A DNA stretch of 35,266 nucleotides from Acidimicrobiales bacterium. GTDB taxonomy: Bacteria; Actinomycetota; Acidimicrobiia; Acidimicrobiales; DASWMK01. Shown here one piece after another: positions 15,932-24,937 of the stretch. A model generated the notes under the pieces. It was not told where the DNA came from. It saw only the letters and a list, made by a program, of their open reading frames with translations, and did no database searches. The DNA is taken from NCBI GenBank assembly GCA_036399815.1, contig DASWMK010000204.1:1-35266 (forward strand). The letters are read 5' to 3'. A program made the position numbers and the translations under genes. Position 1 is the stretch's first letter; each line of letters begins with the position of its first letter.

Positions 15932-16804
15932 TCAGCCGCCGACCGCGGCCCGCAGCCGGGGGACGACGTCGGCGGCGAGCCGCTCCACCTGGTCGGCGCC
16001 GTCGCCGGCCGGCCACAGGTCGAGCGCCGTAAAGCCGAGGTCGACCAGCTCGGCCAGCCGCTCGACGACCTCGTCCGGGTCGCCGGCCACCACCCGGTCG
16101 CCCCTGCCCCGGCCGCCGACCGACACGCCGACGTTGTACGCGTAGGTCAGCTCGCCGGGGTCCCGGCCGGCCGCCTCGGCCGCCGCCCGGACCCGGGCCA
16201 GCATCCCGGGCACGACGTCGGGCGGGGCGTAGGGCATCGACGGCAGCCAGCCGTCGGCCAGCCGGCCGGTGAGCTCGAGCGACCGGCGGCCGTAGGCGCC
16301 GAGCCAGACGGGCACGGGGCGGGCCGGCGTCGGGGCGATGCGGGCGCCCTGCGTGCGGTGGTGCCGACCGTCGAGGGTCGACTCGCCCGTGGTCCACAGT
16401 CCCTGGAGCACGGCGATGGCCTCCTCCAGGGCGTCGACCTTCTCGCCCGGCGACCGCACCGGCAGCCCGAACGCCGAGAACTCCTCGTCCGAGCCGCCGG
16501 CCCCGAGGCCGAGCACCAGCCGGCCGCCCGACAGCCGGTCGAGCGACTCGGCCATCTTGGCCAGCACGGCAGGGGGCCGGTAGGGGAGGCCGAGCACGTC
16601 GCTGACCACGCCGACGCGGCTGGTCGAGGCGGCGACCCAGGTCAGCAGGCTCCAGGTCTCGAACGTCGGCGACGTGCCGTGCAGGTGGTCGGAGGCCGAG
16701 ACGAAGTCGAAGCCGAGCGCTTCGGCCCGCCGGGCGTCGGCCACCGGGTCGGCGCCGTCCCGGGCGGAGGTCGACAGGTTCAGCCCGACGCGCAGCGGGG
16801 TCAG
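15932..16804 (-). CDS. LLM class (F420-type) oxidoreductase, apparent CTG start
   Basis: 290 residues of luciferase-like TIM-barrel sequence: LRVGLNLSTSARDG (strand 1), RRAEALGFDFVSASDHLHG, PPAVLAKMAESLDRLSGGR, LVLGLGAGGSDEEF and VPVWLGAYGRRSLELTGRLA. The family uses coenzyme F420 or FMN; F420 is likely in an actinobacterium but not proven. No ATG, GTG or TTG lies just before strand 1; the fitting start is CTG 16804, whose CTGA overlaps the upstream stop in the same way as the GTGA junctions elsewhere here. The next start, GTG 16744, would remove strand 1. It is in a probable operon with the DUF6916-like and GNAT genes. Confidence 0.88.
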   Translation of the reverse strand: MTPLRVGLNLSTSARDGADPVADARRAEALGFDFVSASDHLHGTSPTFETWSLLTWVAASTSRVGVVSDVLGLPYRPPAVLAKMAESLDRLSGGRLVLGLGAGGSDEEFSAFGLPVRSPGEKVDALEEAIAVLQGLWTTGESTLDGRHHRTQGARIAPTPARPVPVWLGAYGRRSLELTGRLADGWLPSMPYAPPDVVPGMLARVRAAAEAAGRDPGELTYAYNVGVSVGGRGRGDRVVAGDPDEVVERLAELVDLGFTALDLWPAGDGADQVERLAADVVPRLRAAVGG

Positions 16805-17094
16805 GTGAAGACCGCCTCGTAGGTGACGGCGTCGGCGTCGGCGCCGACGGGGACGAGGAACAGCTCCAGCTCGCCGAACCCGTCGGAGGACAGGTGGTGG
16901 ATCTGCTGGGGCAGGATCGTGCCGGGGGTGCCCCGGAACAGCAGCGAGAACGGGTCCCGGTCCCCGCGGCGGCGGCCGAGCGGGGTGACCTCGGTGAGCA
17001 CGACGGGCAGGTCGTGGCCGTCCCACTTCAGCAGGAAGGTGGTGCCCTCGAGGGGGCGGAAGTCGTCGACGGTCAGGGCTGCGAGGTCGCGCAC
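16801..17094 (-). CDS. DUF6916-like small protein
   Basis: 97 residues: LAALTVDDFRPLEGTTFLL at the start, then LTEVTPLGRRRGDRDPFSLL, FRGTPGTILPQQIHHL and ELELFLVPVG near the end. This pattern fits the DUF6916 family, small all-beta proteins that I recall being encoded near phage-tail-collar (MdpB-like) genes in many bacteria. Two collar genes lie 2.5 kb away in this window, supporting that link. Function unknown. GTG 17094 lies inside the 3' end of the GNAT gene (22-bp overlap), and the stop overlaps the start of the LLM gene, so the three are translationally linked. Confidence 0.75.
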   Translation of the reverse strand: MRDLAALTVDDFRPLEGTTFLLKWDGHDLPVVLTEVTPLGRRRGDRDPFSLLFRGTPGTILPQQIHHLSSDGFGELELFLVPVGADADAVTYEAVFT

Positions 17095-17552
17095 CGGTGC
17101 TCCATCATCAGGTGGGCGCCGGTCCGGCCGGCGGGGGTGAAGCCCAGCCGGTCGTAGAGCCGGCGGGCCGGGTTGCCGTCCTCGACGTGCAGGCGCACGA
17201 CCCGGCCGTCCCGCTCGCCCTCCTCGATCAGGTCGCGGAGCAGGCGGGTGCCGACGCCAGCGCCCCTCGCCTCGGGGAGCAGGGCGAGGTCGAGGATGCG
17301 GATCTCGTCGGGGCGGCGGTCGACCCAGAGGCGACCGGCCGGCCGCCCGTCGACCACCACCACGTCGTGGCGGGCGTCGGGGAAGTGGGCCGAGTAGTGG
17401 CGGTCCTGGGCCTCGAACTGCATGCGGACGAACGTGTCCTTGTCCTCGTCGGTCCAGGGGACGGCGGCCAGCTCGTCGGCCCTCGTCGAGGCGTAGACGG
17501 CGAGGAGGAGGTCGCGGTCGCCGGGGGTGACGGGGCGCAGCTCCACCTCCAC
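17073..17552 (-). CDS. GNAT family N-acetyltransferase
   Basis: 159 residues. The GNAT fold is seen from VELRPVTPGDRDLLLAVYAS, through RILDLALLPEARGAGVGTRL, which contains the acetyl-CoA pyrophosphate loop (R-G-A-G-V-G-T), to VEDGNPARRLYDRLGF, the typical motif B end. It would transfer an acetyl group from acetyl-CoA to an amine on an unidentified substrate. GTG 17552 is used; TATCGT (complement of 17561-17566) lies 8 nt upstream. It is the first gene of a minus-strand set with the DUF6916-like and LLM genes and is divergent, by only 26 bp, from the Nif11-like/sulfotransferase/AspH set, so the two groups may be expressed together. Confidence 0.93.
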   Translation of the reverse strand: MEVELRPVTPGDRDLLLAVYASTRADELAAVPWTDEDKDTFVRMQFEAQDRHYSAHFPDARHDVVVVDGRPAGRLWVDRRPDEIRILDLALLPEARGAGVGTRLLRDLIEEGERDGRVVRLHVEDGNPARRLYDRLGFTPAGRTGAHLMMEHRCATSQP

Positions 17553-17578: not shown

Positions 17579-17785
17579 GTGGGCGGAGACGGCCTCGAGC
17601 GGCTCACCGCGGCGGTCCTCGCCGACCCGGCCCTCCAGCAGCGCCTCCTCGCCGTCCCGGAGCGGCCGGCGTTCGTGGCGGAGGTCGTGGCCGTGGCCGC
17701 CGAGCGGGGGCTGGACGTGACGCCGGCCGACGTCGAGGCCGCGCTGGTGGCCGCCCGCCGGGCCTGGCTGGAGCGGTGGGTGTGA
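17579..17785 (+). CDS. Nif11-like small protein (leader-peptide-like)
   Basis: 68 residues. LADPALQQRLLAVPERPAFV followed by EVVAVAAERGLDVTPADVEA matches the layout of Nif11-type proteins and leader peptides (DP.LQ..L, then a helix, then A...G..(V/F)T..D). Nif11 leaders precede some RiPP core peptides, but here the protein ends with ARRAWLERWV and has no GG cleavage site or Cys/Ser/Thr-rich core, so it may be a standalone carrier or recognition protein. GTG 17579 is 8 nt from TACCGT. Its stop overlaps the start of the sulfotransferase-like gene (GTGA, 17782-17785), implying joint translation. Family call is by eye and moderately sure. Confidence 0.7.
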   Translation: MGGDGLERLTAAVLADPALQQRLLAVPERPAFVAEVVAVAAERGLDVTPADVEAALVAARRAWLERWV

Positions 17786-18708
17786 CCTTCGAGGCGTGGA
17801 CGCCGATCCGGGTCGACCTCGGGGACGGGGCGCCGGTCGTCGACTGGTGCCACACGGCCGGCGTCGACTTCGGCGAGCCCTTCTTCGACGAGAGCGTCGA
17901 GCGCTGCCTGCGCCACCCGTTCCGGCTGCTGTTCCGCCGGCGGACCGGGATCGACGCCCTCGCCGAGGCGGCCGCCGAGCGCCCCGGCCTGGCCCCGTCC
18001 GGCTTCGTGCTCCACCTGTCGCGCAGCGGGTCGACCCTGGTCGCGTCGATGCTCGCCGCCCTGCCGTCCACCCTCGTGCTGTCCGAGCCGCGGCCCCTCG
18101 ACACCGTGCTGCGCACCGGTCGGGCCGACTGGGTGCGGGCCATGGTCGCCGCCCTCGGCCAGCCCCGGCGGCCGGGCCAGCGCCACCTCGTCGTGAAGCT
18201 CGACGCCTGGGCCGTGTTCCAGCTGCCCGCGCTGGTGGCCGCGTTCCCCGGCGTGCCCGTCGCCATGGTCCACCGCGACCCGGTCGAGGTGCTCGTCTCC
18301 CAGGAGCGGCGGCGGGGCTGGCACATGGTGCCGGGGACGCTCGACCCCGCCGTGGTCGGCGTGGCCGACCCGACCGCGGTGCCGCCGGAGGACCACCTGG
18401 CCGCGGTGCTCGGCGCGCTCTGCCGGGCGGCCGCCGCCCACCTGCCGCCCGGGTCGCTCCTCGTCGACCACCGCGACCTCCCCGGGGCCGTGCCCGACGC
18501 CGTCGCCCCCCACTTCGGCATCCCTTGCGACGGGCCGGCCCGGGCCGACGTGCTCCGGGTGGCCGCCCTCGACGCCAAGAACCCGTTCGTGCCGTTCGAG
18601 GACGACCGGGCGGCCAAGCGGTCGGCGGCGTCGCCGGCGCTGCGGGCCGCGGCCGAGCGGTGGGTGGCCGAGCCCTACGAGGCGCTGCTGGCGAGGAGGG
18701 CGGGGTGA
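17782..18708 (+). CDS. Sulfotransferase family protein
   Basis: 308 residues. GFVLHLSRSGSTLVASMLAA (residues ~74-93) is the 5'-phosphosulfate-binding loop of PAPS sulfotransferases (P-loop-like, with RSGST), and PVAMVHRDPVEVLVSQERRR (~161-180) is the 3'-phosphate-binding Arg/Ser segment. The N-terminal ~70 residues, with DWCHTAGVDFGEPFFDESVE, are extra and may bind the acceptor. The acceptor could be a small molecule, a peptide or a protein; tight coupling with a Nif11-like protein and an AspH-like hydroxylase (GTGA overlaps on both sides) suggests a shared substrate, but that is inference. No membrane anchor is seen, so cytosolic. Confidence 0.85.
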   Translation: MTFEAWTPIRVDLGDGAPVVDWCHTAGVDFGEPFFDESVERCLRHPFRLLFRRRTGIDALAEAAAERPGLAPSGFVLHLSRSGSTLVASMLAALPSTLVLSEPRPLDTVLRTGRADWVRAMVAALGQPRRPGQRHLVVKLDAWAVFQLPALVAAFPGVPVAMVHRDPVEVLVSQERRRGWHMVPGTLDPAVVGVADPTAVPPEDHLAAVLGALCRAAAAHLPPGSLLVDHRDLPGAVPDAVAPHFGIPCDGPARADVLRVAALDAKNPFVPFEDDRAAKRSAASPALRAAAERWVAEPYEALLARRAG

Positions 18709-19268
18709 GCGGGCCGGACCGGGCCCGCCTGCCGCTGCGCTTCGACGCCGCCGCCCTCGCCGCCGAGGCGGCCGCGCTGCCGGCCGACGCCTGGGTGCCC
18801 CACTTCAACACCCGCCAGTACGAGGGCGACTGGAGCGGCGTCGCCCTCCGGGCCCCGGTCGGCGGGCTGACGCCGCTGTACCCGGACCCGGCGGCCGAGG
18901 CGTTCGAGCCGACCGAGGCGCTGGCCGCCTGCCCGCGGACGGCCGAGGCGCTGGCCGCCTTCCCCTGCCCGGTGACGACGGCCCGGTTCCTCCGCCTCGG
19001 CCCCGGGTCGCGGATCACCGAGCACCGCGACCACAAGCTCTCGGTGCCCGACGGCGAGGCCCGCCTCCACGTCCCGCTCACGACCGGGCCGGGGGTGACG
19101 TTCCTGCTCGACGGCCGCCCCGTCGACATGGCCGCCGGCGAGTGCTGGTACCTGGACCTGACGCGGCGCCACGCCGTCACCAACGAGGGCGATCGCCCCC
19201 GCGTCCACCTGGTCGTCGACTGCGTGGCCGACGACTGGCTGGCGCGAATCGTGCAGACGGGGCCGTAG
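18705..19268 (+). CDS. Aspartyl/asparaginyl beta-hydroxylase domain protein
   Basis: 187 residues. PADAWVPHFNTRQYEGDWSG is the start of the bacterial AspH-like family. The iron-binding core has ITEHRDHKL (first His), LHVPLTTGPGVTFLLDG, MAAGECWYLDLTRRHAVTNE (second His) and RPRVHLVVDCV (Arg/His for 2-oxoglutarate). Such proteins are 2-oxoglutarate- and Fe(II)-dependent hydroxylases acting on Asp/Asn or Pro side chains or free amino acids. GTG 18705 overlaps the sulfotransferase stop by four bases, so the enzyme belongs to the same unit as the Nif11-like protein. The next gene, a tail-collar protein, is 197 bp downstream with its own likely promoter. Confidence 0.88.
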   Translation: MSGPDRARLPLRFDAAALAAEAAALPADAWVPHFNTRQYEGDWSGVALRAPVGGLTPLYPDPAAEAFEPTEALAACPRTAEALAAFPCPVTTARFLRLGPGSRITEHRDHKLSVPDGEARLHVPLTTGPGVTFLLDGRPVDMAAGECWYLDLTRRHAVTNEGDRPRVHLVVDCVADDWLARIVQTGP

Positions 19269-19465: not shown

Positions 19466-19975
19466 GTGTCCGAGCCGTTCCTGGGCGAGATCCGCCTGTT
19501 CCCGTACACCTTCGCCCCGAGGGGGTGGGCCTTCTGCCAGGGCCAGCTCCTGTCCATCGCCCAGAACACCGCGCTGTTCTCGCTGCTCGGCGTCACCTAC
19601 GGCGGCAACGGGCAGACGACGTTCGGCCTGCCCGACCTCCGCGGCCGGGTGGCGATGAGCTCGGGCCAGGGCCCCGGCCTCAGCAACTACGTCCTCGGCG
19701 AGACGGGCGGCGAGGAGACCGTGACCCTGCTCCAGAACCAGATGCCGATGCACAACCACATGGTCAACGCCAGCAGCCAGGCGTCCTCGGCCAGCCGTCC
19801 GAGCGGGCAGTTCCCGAGCGCGGGCGGCGCCTACACGGGCGCCACGGACGGATCGCTGATGAACCCGTCGATGATCGGCGCCGCCGGCGGCAGCCAACCG
19901 CACGACAACATGCAGCCCTACCTCACGCTCAACTACTGCATCGCGCTGGAGGGCATCTACCCGTCCCGGAACTGA
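19466..19975 (+). CDS. Phage tail collar domain protein (MdpB-like), copy 1
   Basis: 169 residues starting VSEPFLGEIRLFPYTFAPRG. Residues ~4-58 are the tail-collar domain: FLGEIRLF, PRGWAFCQGQLLSI, YGGNGQTTFGLPDLRGRV. The later part has a QMPMHNHMV segment, a Ser/Ala-rich stretch and ends LEGIYPSRN. Standalone proteins like this (microcystin-dependent protein MdpB family) occur in many non-phage contexts and their role is unknown; no signal peptide is visible. GTG 19466 has GAGAGGGAG about 6 nt upstream. A paralog of exactly equal length follows, and no capsid, tail tube, terminase or lysis genes are near, so this is not an obvious prophage. Confidence 0.93.
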   Translation: MSEPFLGEIRLFPYTFAPRGWAFCQGQLLSIAQNTALFSLLGVTYGGNGQTTFGLPDLRGRVAMSSGQGPGLSNYVLGETGGEETVTLLQNQMPMHNHMVNASSQASSASRPSGQFPSAGGAYTGATDGSLMNPSMIGAAGGSQPHDNMQPYLTLNYCIALEGIYPSRN

Positions 19976-20188: not shown

Positions 20189-20698
20189 GTGTCCGAAGCC
20201 TTCATCGGCGAGATCCGCATCTACGGGTTCAACTTCCCGCCGCGTGGCTGGGCCATGTGCAACGGGCAGATCCTGTCGATCTCCCAGAACACGGCGCTGT
20301 TCGCGCTGATCGGGACGACCTACGGGGGCAACGGGCAGACGACGTTCGCGCTGCCGAACCTGCAGAGCCGGGTGCCGGTGCACTTCGGGCAGGGCCCCGG
20401 GCTCAGCCCGTACCCGATCGGGGAGACGTCCGGCTCCGAGACCGTGACGCTCAACCAGAACCAGCTGCCGGTCCACGGCCACACCGTCTCGGCGAGCAGC
20501 GTGGCGCCGAACGCCAGCCGTCCCGGCAACGCCTTCCTCGCCGCGAACGGCGCCTACCAGGCGGCCGCGGACGGCACGACCATGAACCCCGGGATGGTCT
20601 CGGGCGGCGGGTCCAACCAGCCGTTCGGGATCCTCCAGCCCTTCCTGGCGCTCAACTTCAGCATCTGCCTGGAAGGCCTGTTCCCGTCGCGCAACTGA
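20189..20698 (+). CDS. Phage tail collar domain protein (MdpB-like), copy 2
   Basis: 169 residues, same length as copy 1 and alignable without gaps by eye: VSEAFIGEIRIYGFNFPPRG, PRGWAMCNGQILSISQNTAL, YGGNGQTTFALPNLQSRV, LNQNQLPVHGHTV, and the end LEGLFPSRN (LEGIYPSRN in copy 1). The middle Ser/Asn/Ala-rich part differs most, as expected for an exposed or ligand-binding region. The short leader-peptide-free N-terminus argues against Sec export. GTG 20189 is chosen over ATG 20147 because GGGAGGG sits ~5 nt before it and the N-terminus then matches the paralog. A secreted multidomain protein follows 81 bp later on the same strand. Confidence 0.93.
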   Translation: MSEAFIGEIRIYGFNFPPRGWAMCNGQILSISQNTALFALIGTTYGGNGQTTFALPNLQSRVPVHFGQGPGLSPYPIGETSGSETVTLNQNQLPVHGHTVSASSVAPNASRPGNAFLAANGAYQAAADGTTMNPGMVSGGGSNQPFGILQPFLALNFSICLEGLFPSRN

Positions 20699-20757: not shown

Positions 20758-20779
20758 ACGAACCAGAGGGGCAGTGCTG

Positions 20780-23700
20780 ATGAAGGTTCCGACCTCACCC
20801 GTCCGGCGGGTGTCGGTCCTGGCGGTGGTGACGTTGGCGGCAGCACTGTTCCCCGTGCTGCTCCTCGCCGCGCCCGCCCAGGCCGCCACGTTCTCCAACA
20901 ACACGGCGATCAGCAACGCCGAGGGCCCGGCCACGTGCTCGGGCACGAGGACGCCGCCGTCGGTGTACCCGTCGACGATCAACGTCTCCGGCCAGACGGG
21001 GACGATCCAGAGCGTCTCGGTGACGCTCAAGGGCATGACCGGGTGGAACAACGACTTCGACGTGCTGCTCGTCGGGCCGGCCGGCCAGAAGCTCATCGTC
21101 GTGTCCGACTCCGGCTCGGCGCTGATGACCGGCGGCGGCGTGACCCTCACGTTCGCCGACGCCGGCTCGTCGCTCGCCCCCGCCACCGGGGGCTGGACGA
21201 ACGGCGCCACCTACAAGCCGACCGACTACGACACCTCGACCGACGGCGAGTCGTTCCCGTCGCCCGCCCCCGCGGCGCCGTACGGCGACCCCGCCCCGGC
21301 CGGGTCGACGACGTTCGCCAGCGCCTTCAACGGCGCCAGCGCCAACGGCACGTGGAGCCTGTACCTGACCGACGACTGCCTCGGCGACCCGTCCTCGATC
21401 ACCGGCGGCTGGGACCTGAACGTCACGTCCCTCTCGGCCGCGGCGACCACGACGACGGTCACGTCGTCCAACAACCCGTCCCGCACCGGCAGCAACGTCA
21501 CGTTCACGGCCACGGTCACGAGCGGCGCCAGCCCGGTCACGAGCGGCACGGTCACCTTCACCAGGGGCGCCACCACCTTGGCCGCCAACGTCGCCGTCAA
21601 CGGCAGCGGCCAGGCCGCCTTCACCACCAGCACCCTGACCGAGGGCGTCCACACGATCACGGCGACCTACAACGGCACCGCCTCGTTCGCCACCAGCAAC
21701 GGCTCGGTCACCCAGACGGTCGACAACAACACGGTCGTCACCGGCGGCTCGTACTGCAACACCGGGGCGATCACGATCAACGACAACGGCGCGACCACGC
21801 CGTACCCGTCGCGCATCTTCGTCACCGGTGAGGGCGCCGTCTCCAACCTGACCCTCACGGTCAAGAACGTCACCCACACCCACGGCGACGACCTCGACCT
21901 GCTGCTCGTGGGCCCGACCGGCGTGAAGTACGTGTTCGTCTCCGACGCCGGCGGCAGCCCCGACATCTCGAACCAGACCCTGACCTTCGACGACGCCGCC
22001 GCCTCCGGCCTGACCGACAACGCCGGCGGCTGGGTGACCGGCACGTGGCGCCCGTCGAACTTCAACGACGGAACCGACGCCTTCCTGTCGCCGGCCCCTG
22101 CCGGGCCCTACCAGCACGCCCAGCCCACCGGCGCGGCGACCTTCGCCTCGCTGTTCGGCGGCACCGACCCCAACGGCACGTGGCAGCTGTTCGCCCACGA
22201 CGACGCCCTGGGCGACACCGGCTCCTTCGCCGGCGGCTGGTGCCTCAACATCACCTCGACCACCGACCCGGCCACGACCACGACCGTGTCGTCCTCGCAG
22301 AACCCGTCGACCACCGGCGGCTCGGTGACCTTCACCGCCCACGTGACGAAGACGAGCGACAGCAGCAACGTCACCGTCGGCACCGTCACCTTCAAGGACG
22401 GCGCCACCGTCGTGTCCGGCCCGACCGCCCTCAACGGCAGCGGCGTCGCCACGTGGACGACCTCCTCGCTGACCGAGGGCCAGCACCTGATCACCGCCTC
22501 CTACAGCGGGAGCGCCGGGGCGTTCAACCTGAGCAGCGGCCAGGTCACCCAGACGGTGATCGACCAGACGACGCTCGTCGGCGCCGCCTTCTGCAACACC
22601 GGCTCGTTCCCGATCAACGACGGCGCCGGGCCCGGGGTGGCCGGCACGGCCAACCCGTACCCGTCGCAGGTGACGGTCAGCGGGGTGTCGGGCAGCATCG
22701 GGACCGTCTCGGTCACGCTCCGCAACGTCACCCACAGCGCCGCCGACGACATCGACGTCCTGCTCGTCGGGCCCGGCGGCCAGAAGTTCGTGGTCGTCTC
22801 CGACGCCGGCGGCGGTGAGTCGGCCGGCACCGAGCTGTCCAACGTGACGGTGACCTTCACCGACGCCGCCGCATCCTCGGCGCCCGACTCGTCGCCGTGG
22901 GGCTCGCCCAACACGACGGTCTCGCTCAAGCCGACCGACCACAACAGCGGCACCGACGAGTTCCCGTCGCCCGCCCCTGCCGGCCCGTACGGGACCCCGG
23001 CCCCGGCCGGCTCGGCCACGTTCACCTCGGTGTTCGGCGGGACGGCACCGGCCGGCGTCTGGAGCCTGTACGTCGCCGACGACACCCTGAGCGACACCGG
23101 CACGATCGGTGACGGGTGGTGCCTCAACCTGAGCGTCCCGGTCGACGCCGTCAACGACAGCTACACCGCCACCCAGGGCACGCCGCTCACCGTGAACGCC
23201 CCCGGCGTGCTCGCCAACGACGGCGGCTACCCGGTGCCGACGGCCACGGCCATCTCGAGCGGCACGACCGCCCAGGGCGGGACCGTCACCCTCAACGCCA
23301 ACGGCAGCTTCACCTACACGGCGCCGTCCGGCTACGGGGGCCCCGACAGCTTCACCTACACGGCCGGCAACGGCGCCACCAGCGACACGGCCACGGTGAA
23401 CATCGACGTCCGGTCGGCCCCGGTGATCACGGTGCCGGCCGACTTCGAGGTCACCGAGAGCCCGGCCGACTCGGGGAGCGCGGAGGTGACGTTCACGGTC
23501 ACCGCCACCGGCAACCCGACGCCGACGATCTCCTGCGTCGAGGGCGCGACGCCGGTCAGCTCGCCGGTCACGCTCGCCGTCGGCGCCCACACGATCGACT
23601 GCACGGCGACCAACACCGTCGGCAGCGACAGCGACTCGTTCGTGGTCACGGTCGAGGCGGCCAACACGGCGCCCGTGGCCGACGCCGGCGGCCCGTACAC

Positions 23701-24937
23701 GATCGAGGAGGGCGACGGCCTCACCCTCGACGGCTCGGGCTCCTCGGACGACGACGGCGACACGCTCACCTACAGCTGGGACGTCGACGGCGACGGCACC
23801 TTCGGTGACGCCACCGGCGTGTCACCGACCCTCACGGCCGACGACCTCGAGGCCCTCGGCATCGACGACGGCCCCGGCGACTCCACCTCGAACCTGAAGG
23901 TGCGGGTCACCGACGGCCGCCCCGGCGGCACCGTCGACTCGGCGGCCGCCAGCCTCACCGTGTCCAACCAGGCGCCGACGGCCGGCATCACCGGTGGCGG
24001 CACCGCCATCGCCGGGCAGTCGTTCTCGCTCACCTTCACCGCCGACGACCCCTCGCCGACCGACCAGGCGGCCGGGTTCAGCTACACGATCGACTGGGAC
24101 GACGGCTCGGCCCAGGAGGTCGTGAGCGGCAGCGGCTCCGAGGCGCGGTCGCACACGTACACGACGTTCGGCACCTTCAACGTCACCGTGACGGCCACCG
24201 ACAAGGACGGCGGCACGAGCGAGCAGGAGAACCTGTTCGTCTCGGTGGCCGGCGCCGAGCTCGGCACCGACCCGTGCGGCGCGGGCCAGGCCCTCGTCGT
24301 CCACGGCACCGGCGGCAACGACAACATCCAGGTGGCCACCGCCAGCGGCGGCCTCCGGGTGTCGATCGGCGGCGTCAACGCCGGCGTGTTCTCGCCGACC
24401 GGGCAGCTGATCGTGCTGGCCGGCGCCGGGAACGACACGGTCGCCGTCGGGTCGAACGTCACGACGCCCCGCACCGTCTACGGCGGCGAGGGCAACGACG
24501 TCGTGACCGGCGGCAAGGGCAACGGCGCCCTCGTCGGCGGGGACGGCGACGACCTGCTCCAGGTCGGCGTCGGTCGCAACCTCCTCATCGGCGGCGACGG
24601 CCTCGACACCCTGCGGGGCGGCGACGGCGAGGACATCCTCGTCACCGGGTCGACCACCTACGACGATCCCGACTCCGGGGCCGAGGGCCTGTGCGCCATC
24701 GCCGCCGAGTGGGGCTCGACGCCGAAGTTCAAGTTCCGGGTCGACCACATCTCGGGTGCCCACCCGGGCGGTGCCAACGGCAGCTTCTTCCTCGACGGGT
24801 CCACCGTCAGCGACGACGCCTACGCCGACAGCGCCAGCGGCTGGCGGGGCCGTGACTGGTTCCTCGCCAACCGCACCGGCGGCGGCACGCTCGACACGCT
24901 CGACGCCAGGAACCCGGACCGGGTGACGGACCTCTAG
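20780..24937 (+). CDS. Large secreted multidomain protein: P-domain-like, Ig-like, cadherin-like, PKD and RTX-type repeats
   Basis: 1385 residues. A Sec signal peptide (basic VPTSPVRR, then a hydrophobic stretch, AAPAQA cleavage) ends near residue 35. Then come: P-domain-like modules at ~36-218, ~320-493 and ~603-783, each with DVLLVGP-type or DLLLVGP and GTWSLY-type motifs; Ig-like repeats at ~222-313 and ~497-593 (TTTTVTSSNNPS, LTEGVHTITATYNG); a cadherin-like domain (~789-875, VNDSYTATQG, GVLANDGG); a HYR-like domain (~878-960); two PKD-like domains (~963-1157, PVADAGGPYTIEEGDGLTLD); RTX-type glycine/Asp repeats (~1173-1293, GGEGNDVVTGG, GGDGDDLL); and a 90-residue tail. No catalytic domain, sortase motif or anchor is seen. 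It probably acts as an extracellular adhesin or scaffold; calcium binding by the repeats is inferred. Confidence 0.92.
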   Translation: MKVPTSPVRRVSVLAVVTLAAALFPVLLLAAPAQAATFSNNTAISNAEGPATCSGTRTPPSVYPSTINVSGQTGTIQSVSVTLKGMTGWNNDFDVLLVGPAGQKLIVVSDSGSALMTGGGVTLTFADAGSSLAPATGGWTNGATYKPTDYDTSTDGESFPSPAPAAPYGDPAPAGSTTFASAFNGASANGTWSLYLTDDCLGDPSSITGGWDLNVTSLSAAATTTTVTSSNNPSRTGSNVTFTATVTSGASPVTSGTVTFTRGATTLAANVAVNGSGQAAFTTSTLTEGVHTITATYNGTASFATSNGSVTQTVDNNTVVTGGSYCNTGAITINDNGATTPYPSRIFVTGEGAVSNLTLTVKNVTHTHGDDLDLLLVGPTGVKYVFVSDAGGSPDISNQTLTFDDAAASGLTDNAGGWVTGTWRPSNFNDGTDAFLSPAPAGPYQHAQPTGAATFASLFGGTDPNGTWQLFAHDDALGDTGSFAGGWCLNITSTTDPATTTTVSSSQNPSTTGGSVTFTAHVTKTSDSSNVTVGTVTFKDGATVVSGPTALNGSGVATWTTSSLTEGQHLITASYSGSAGAFNLSSGQVTQTVIDQTTLVGAAFCNTGSFPINDGAGPGVAGTANPYPSQVTVSGVSGSIGTVSVTLRNVTHSAADDIDVLLVGPGGQKFVVVSDAGGGESAGTELSNVTVTFTDAAASSAPDSSPWGSPNTTVSLKPTDHNSGTDEFPSPAPAGPYGTPAPAGSATFTSVFGGTAPAGVWSLYVADDTLSDTGTIGDGWCLNLSVPVDAVNDSYTATQGTPLTVNAPGVLANDGGYPVPTATAISSGTTAQGGTVTLNANGSFTYTAPSGYGGPDSFTYTAGNGATSDTATVNIDVRSAPVITVPADFEVTESPADSGSAEVTFTVTATGNPTPTISCVEGATPVSSPVTLAVGAHTIDCTATNTVGSDSDSFVVTVEAANTAPVADAGGPYTIEEGDGLTLDGSGSSDDDGDTLTYSWDVDGDGTFGDATGVSPTLTADDLEALGIDDGPGDSTSNLKVRVTDGRPGGTVDSAAASLTVSNQAPTAGITGGGTAIAGQSFSLTFTADDPSPTDQAAGFSYTIDWDDGSAQEVVSGSGSEARSHTYTTFGTFNVTVTATDKDGGTSEQENLFVSVAGAELGTDPCGAGQALVVHGTGGNDNIQVATASGGLRVSIGGVNAGVFSPTGQLIVLAGAGNDTVAVGSNVTTPRTVYGGEGNDVVTGGKGNGALVGGDGDDLLQVGVGRNLLIGGDGLDTLRGGDGEDILVTGSTTYDDPDSGAEGLCAIAAEWGSTPKFKFRVDHISGAHPGGANGSFFLDGSTVSDDAYADSASGWRGRDWFLANRTGGGTLDTLDARNPDRVTDL

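Follow-up and report, generated by a model that had tools for sequence, protein, structure and literature searches.

Three overlapping genes in the genome of an Acidimicrobiales bacterium, which encode a short Nif11-domain protein, a predicted sulfotransferase (ST) and a 2-oxoglutarate (2OG) oxygenase of the AspH family, raise the question of what such a set of proteins modifies. In the 35,266-nucleotide stretch of DNA analysed here (contig DASWMK010000204.1, hereafter the window), the three genes are joined by GTGA start/stop overlaps (Nif11/ST at 17782-17785, ST/AspH at 18705-18708), and two collar genes and a gene for a 1387-aa secreted repeat protein follow directly downstream (Table 1). 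To our knowledge, cell-encoded collar ("tail fiber") proteins, which occur in many bacterial phyla, have no known role. The original prediction, made from the sequence letters, had reported the overlaps and proposed a coupled modification unit with a recognition-type Nif11 protein; this interpretation is partly supported by our analysis, which confirmed the overlaps and upheld the unit, as the three genes also recur together in other genomes. On comparative grounds, the unit is probably a maturation set for the collar proteins, in which the AspH-family oxygenase would hydroxylate the C-terminal Asn, Nif11 would mediate docking and ST would sulfate a collar hydroxyl.

Table 1. Genes of the Nif11-ST-AspH unit and its surroundings in the window.
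Feature	Position	Strand	Properties
DUF6916 small protein	16801..17094	-	PF21880, 102 bits; upstream side, divergent
GNAT acetyltransferase	17073..17552	-	PF00583, 52 bits; divergent from three-gene unit
Nif11-domain protein	17579..17785	+	68 aa; PF07862, 30.7 bits (gathering cut-off 23.8); C-terminus RRAWLERWV, without core peptide
Predicted sulfotransferase (ST)	17782..18708	+	308 aa; PF13469 (Sulfotransfer_3), 28.9 bits (cut-off 27)
AspH-family 2-oxoglutarate oxygenase	18705..19268	+	187 aa; PF05118, 75.9 bits (cut-off 22.6)
Collar protein 1	19466..19975	+	PF07484, 99.4 bits; ends IYPSRN-COOH
Collar protein 2	20189..20698	+	PF07484, 100.3 bits; ends LFPSRN-COOH
Giant secreted protein	20774..24937	+	1387 aa; Big_3_5, P_proprotein, PKD, cadherin-like and RTX repeats

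An ST alignment scan of 84,980 species genomes yielded 385 relatives, and gene neighbourhoods were counted in the best 80 (36-50% identity), which span Acidimicrobiales, Myxococcota, Verrucomicrobiota, Acidobacteriota, Chloroflexota, Pseudomonas and others. Among these best 80 relatives, a Nif11 reading frame lies directly upstream in 66 and Nif11 is detected by a subfamily HMM in 78, AspH is present in 63, and collar, GNAT and DUF6916 genes in 42, 39 and 29, respectively; the nearest relative locus (L074) contains all six. The three genes thus recur in dozens of unrelated genomes, which is far beyond chance. The original prediction had suggested a survey of actinobacteria, where recurrence was indeed found, but the set occurs in many different phyla and is not specific to actinobacteria. 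PF05118 as a lone neighbourhood probe in the class of the window matched other PF05118 proteins away from collars, and an all-against-all blast for further neighbours of ST loci returned mostly shadow reading frames, in addition to a lasso-like gene set in Alphaproteobacteria. A search of the open-access literature for a published account of the Nif11/ST/AspH combination found nothing relevant.

The collar genes are part of a conserved cellular cluster, in which two or three consecutive collar genes are accompanied by GNAT and, in many cases, by DUF6916 or a giant secreted protein. Such clusters were found in the class of the window, in Deinococcota, Pseudomonadota, Bacillota and other groups, with GNAT and DUF6916 as conserved partners and the giant secreted protein as a frequent companion. 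No publication on DUF6916, a small protein that recurs in the collar clusters of different phyla, was found in the open-access literature. Among 150 Pseudomonas genomes, ST is encoded in 39, all of which also encode a collar protein, while 17 contain only a collar and 94 neither (Fisher 6e-23); many of these Pseudomonas ST and collar genes are located 11-15 kb apart on the same contig. Furthermore, all 20 genomes examined in which the ST locus has no collar gene close by encode a collar at another position in the genome or outside the stretch examined. This co-occurrence, exceptionless in the genomes tested, together with the covariation of the collar terminus described below, makes it very improbable that the enzymes modify lipids or small molecules, with an LpxO-like oxygenase, an ST sulfating a lipid or glycan and an incidental link to collars, even though small molecules or lipids are frequent substrates of bacterial sulfotransferases and the oxygenase weakly matches the LpxO model NF033391 (27 vs 500 bits). 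The neighbours of the collar genes in the window are cellular and do not form a phage tail module, and phage assembly genes were absent from nearly all collar clusters inspected, the exception being a plasmid locus (L072) with a tape-measure gene. A phage or defence reading was rejected, as PHROGs matches were limited to collars and GNAT and PADLOC returned none.

Several collar loci have unusual surroundings. On two Azospirillum plasmids (L016, L071), three collar genes with GNAT and DUF6916 adjoin lasso-like genes encoding PqqD, McjB, asparagine synthetase, an HprK-like kinase and 2OG oxygenases, with a distant ST relative in L016. A Pseudoalteromonas collar cluster (L018:10563-11882) contains AspH and SAM methyltransferase-like, DUF6916-like and subtilase-like proteins, with no ST nearby. 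The genome of the window also harbours a second, divergent collar locus (G000:C274, L057:8278-10329), which encodes a 684-aa protein with three collar domains and without the PSRN tail. In L112 and other Pseudomonas loci, AspH-Nif11-ST adjoins a TolC-like gene and a giant Big_12 repeat protein (18 repeats and 2022 aa within the stretch covered in L112), with the collar gene on the other side of the latter. One contig titled Comamonas sp. KCTC 72670 (L078) has the gene content of Myxococcus and probably derives from a mislabelled or contaminated assembly.

At loci with AspH, the collar C-terminus mostly reads ...P[SAT]RN, while it varies elsewhere (S, T, P, G, D, Q). Terminal Asn was found in 109/116 collars of genomes with AspH vs 15/68 of genomes without it (Fisher 1e-24), where the presence of AspH in most ST-encoding Pseudomonas genomes was deduced from ST, AspH being adjacent in 16/16 Pseudomonas loci inspected. 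As Asn also ends these 15 collars, it is not diagnostic by itself. The last collar residue shows the strongest covariation with AspH of about 350 alignment columns, and 36 phylogenetically independent pairs with and without AspH gave 20:0 in favour of terminal Asn with AspH (sign test p=1e-6). Collars of Myxococcus and ST-encoding Pseudomonas end in Asn, whereas those of Pseudomonas without AspH mostly do not. Predictions made in advance held in further collars: 20 more collar reading frames of ST-encoding Pseudomonas end in Asn without exception (20/20; 23/23 in total with AspH), and in a set of four other genomes plus L087, collars at L232 and L234, which have AspH, are Asn-terminal (3/3), and those at L231, L233 and L087, which lack it, are Ser-terminal (3/3), AspH being absent from the entire genomes of L231 and L233.

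AspH was also sought beyond the collar loci, to test predictions that had been set down beforehand. In four of five genomes with exclusively Asn-ended collars but no AspH nearby (L116, L126, L128, L146), the gene was found elsewhere in the genome, and it was present in none of seven ST-encoding genomes without nearby AspH, the collars of which, where covered by sequence, mostly do not end in Asn. The exceptions include Asn-ended collars without AspH (L115 and L154, in genomes with ST, and L199, L204 and L207) and, on the AspH side, L090 (collars ending in N, S and S) and second collar clusters in G532 and G610. The C-termini of ST, GNAT and DUF6916 showed no Asn bias comparable to that of the collars. 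Since AspH without nearby ST coincides with all-Asn collars (L018) and ST without AspH mostly does not, Asn follows AspH.

This oxygenase family is known to act on Asn side chains, and we infer from these associations that it is the modified residue and not just a recognition feature. Alternatively, the Asn tail could serve solely as a recognition signal, with AspH and ST acting on another collar residue or on the giant secreted protein. ST is also present without AspH and without Asn, giant repeat proteins lie alongside many loci, and Asn could be needed for binding while hydroxylation takes place at another position; this alternative is nevertheless rather unlikely, given that the covariation of the last residue exceeds that of every other column by many orders of magnitude and that Asn follows AspH, not ST. 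The collars and the secreted protein had both been named as possible substrates in the original prediction, of which the collars stand as candidates through the covariation of their terminal residue, while the giant secreted protein is without specific support. The substrate assignment is statistical, on entirely comparative evidence, and the chemistry is a prediction.

The identification of the oxygenase as an AspH hydroxylase held at the level of the family. Its PF05118 (Asp_Arg_Hydrox) match and its metal and 2OG residues, comprising an HxD...H triad (H107/D109/H156) and R166, which are nearly invariant in relatives, place it among the 2OG oxygenases. It does not belong to AspH proper, which acts on EGF domains, as its HRD motif provides an Asp. 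In sequence it is nearest to L-proline cis-4-hydroxylase (4p7w), and among proteins of solved structure the L-proline cis-4- and 3-hydroxylases (4p7w, 1e5r) come closest, followed by AspH. These proline hydroxylases act on free amino acids, which fits a target with a free carboxylate.

ST contains a 5'-PSB loop (SRSGST, residues 80-85) and a 3'-PB Arg165/Ser173 pair with the spacing of 8 that defines PAPS sulfotransferases. As SRxGST and R165/S173 are invariant in 49 relatives, it is a predicted PAPS-type sulfotransferase. Its target is the weakest step of the explanation. Collars of loci with ST but without AspH end in Ser/Thr in 13/16 cases, to which L231, L233 and L087 are added, vs 13/48 with neither enzyme (raw p=2e-4), an association that is not phylogenetically robust, as independent contrasts give just 2:0. 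When the collars without AspH were searched column by column, none was decisively associated with ST. We hypothesize that ST sulfates a terminal collar hydroxyl, including one made on Asn.

The Nif11 protein is the sole Nif11 match in its genome and the only one above the PF07862 cut-off among 247 genomes of its class, although several Nif11 relatives score slightly under this cut-off. The similarity to Nif11 anticipated in the original prediction was found with PF07862 but not at the level of the RiPP-leader model TIGR03798, where the protein remains below the cut-off (16.4 vs 32.3 bits). Nif11 is classically a RiPP leader, and a small RiPP pathway, in which the Nif11 protein would be a leader or precursor hydroxylated and sulfated by both enzymes, would also accommodate distant ST relatives, whose lasso-like gene neighbourhoods include PqqD and AsnB. 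Such a pathway is extremely improbable here. As the original prediction had noted for the window, a core peptide is lacking, which extends to all 67 rows of the subfamily alignment, and the C-terminus is instead a conserved RRxWxERW (first W in 61/67, second in 54/67); the subfamily HMM also retrieves one canonical Nif11 leader with a core, from Cylindrospermum (L140). Moreover, Nif11 is found as a part of the modifying enzymes, at one end or the other: in a single frame with AspH at 25 loci (23 plus L081 and L124), at the ST N-terminus at nine alphaproteobacterial loci and at the ST C-terminus at L097 (10 ST fusions in total), and with GNAT at L141. On account of the absent core and these fusions, the reading as a RiPP precursor was rejected. 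The AspH-Nif11 fusion gives a well-defined structure model (pLDDT 89.6). As Nif11 is carried by three kinds of modifying enzyme, we interpret it as a shared docking element, which supports the proposed recognition-type role. In these loci, Nif11 appears to be a docking domain attached to the enzymes.

Taken together, the AspH-family oxygenase would hydroxylate the C-terminal Asn of the collar (...PSRN-COOH, as in both window collars), assisted by Nif11 as a docking or substrate-presenting domain common to the modifying enzymes, which is separate in the window and fused to AspH, ST or GNAT elsewhere. ST would use PAPS to sulfate a collar hydroxyl, for which the hydroxyl newly made by AspH would be the simplest acceptor, replaced by Ser/Thr in relatives without AspH; both this acceptor and the order of the two reactions are hypothetical. 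We put forward more tentatively an undescribed, phylum-crossing system in which the oxygenase and ST share a Nif11 docking module and act in turn on the very last residue of the collar, which would first be hydroxylated and then O-sulfated. If correct, this would extend known protein chemistry to the hydroxylation of a C-terminal residue, and the residue-level substrate prediction makes the roles of collars and Nif11 testable in culturable hosts such as Myxococcus and Pseudomonas. As Nif11 is usually read as a RiPP leader, Nif11 genes of this type should not be labelled natural-product precursors.

Each part of the unit belongs to a known family, and the novelty is in the system and its substrate. 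The Nif11 protein shares PF07862 with Nif11-leader RiPP precursors (TIGR03798, prochlorosin-like), in which Nif11 resides on the substrate, whereas here it is a domain of modifying enzymes, without core or GG site and with a conserved WxERW C-terminus. ST shares the sulfotransferase fold and PAPS motifs with tyrosylprotein sulfotransferases and bacterial PAPS sulfotransferases (Stf1); tyrosylprotein sulfotransferases are the closest fold to its AF2 model (pLDDT 96.2), but with a TM of only about 0.45, and ST has neither a close solved relative nor an identified Tyr acceptor. The oxygenase has the PF05118 fold and 2OG oxygenase residues of AspH and the L-proline cis-4-/3-hydroxylases, and its HxD...H site resembles that of the proline hydroxylases and differs from the two-His iron site of AspH; its predicted substrate is a C-terminal Asn, in contrast to the EGF domain of AspH and the free proline of the proline hydroxylases. 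Finally, the collars share PF07484 with phage short tail fibre gp12 and tail collar proteins, from which they differ in being cell-encoded, arranged in tandem and accompanied by GNAT, DUF6916 and a giant secreted protein.
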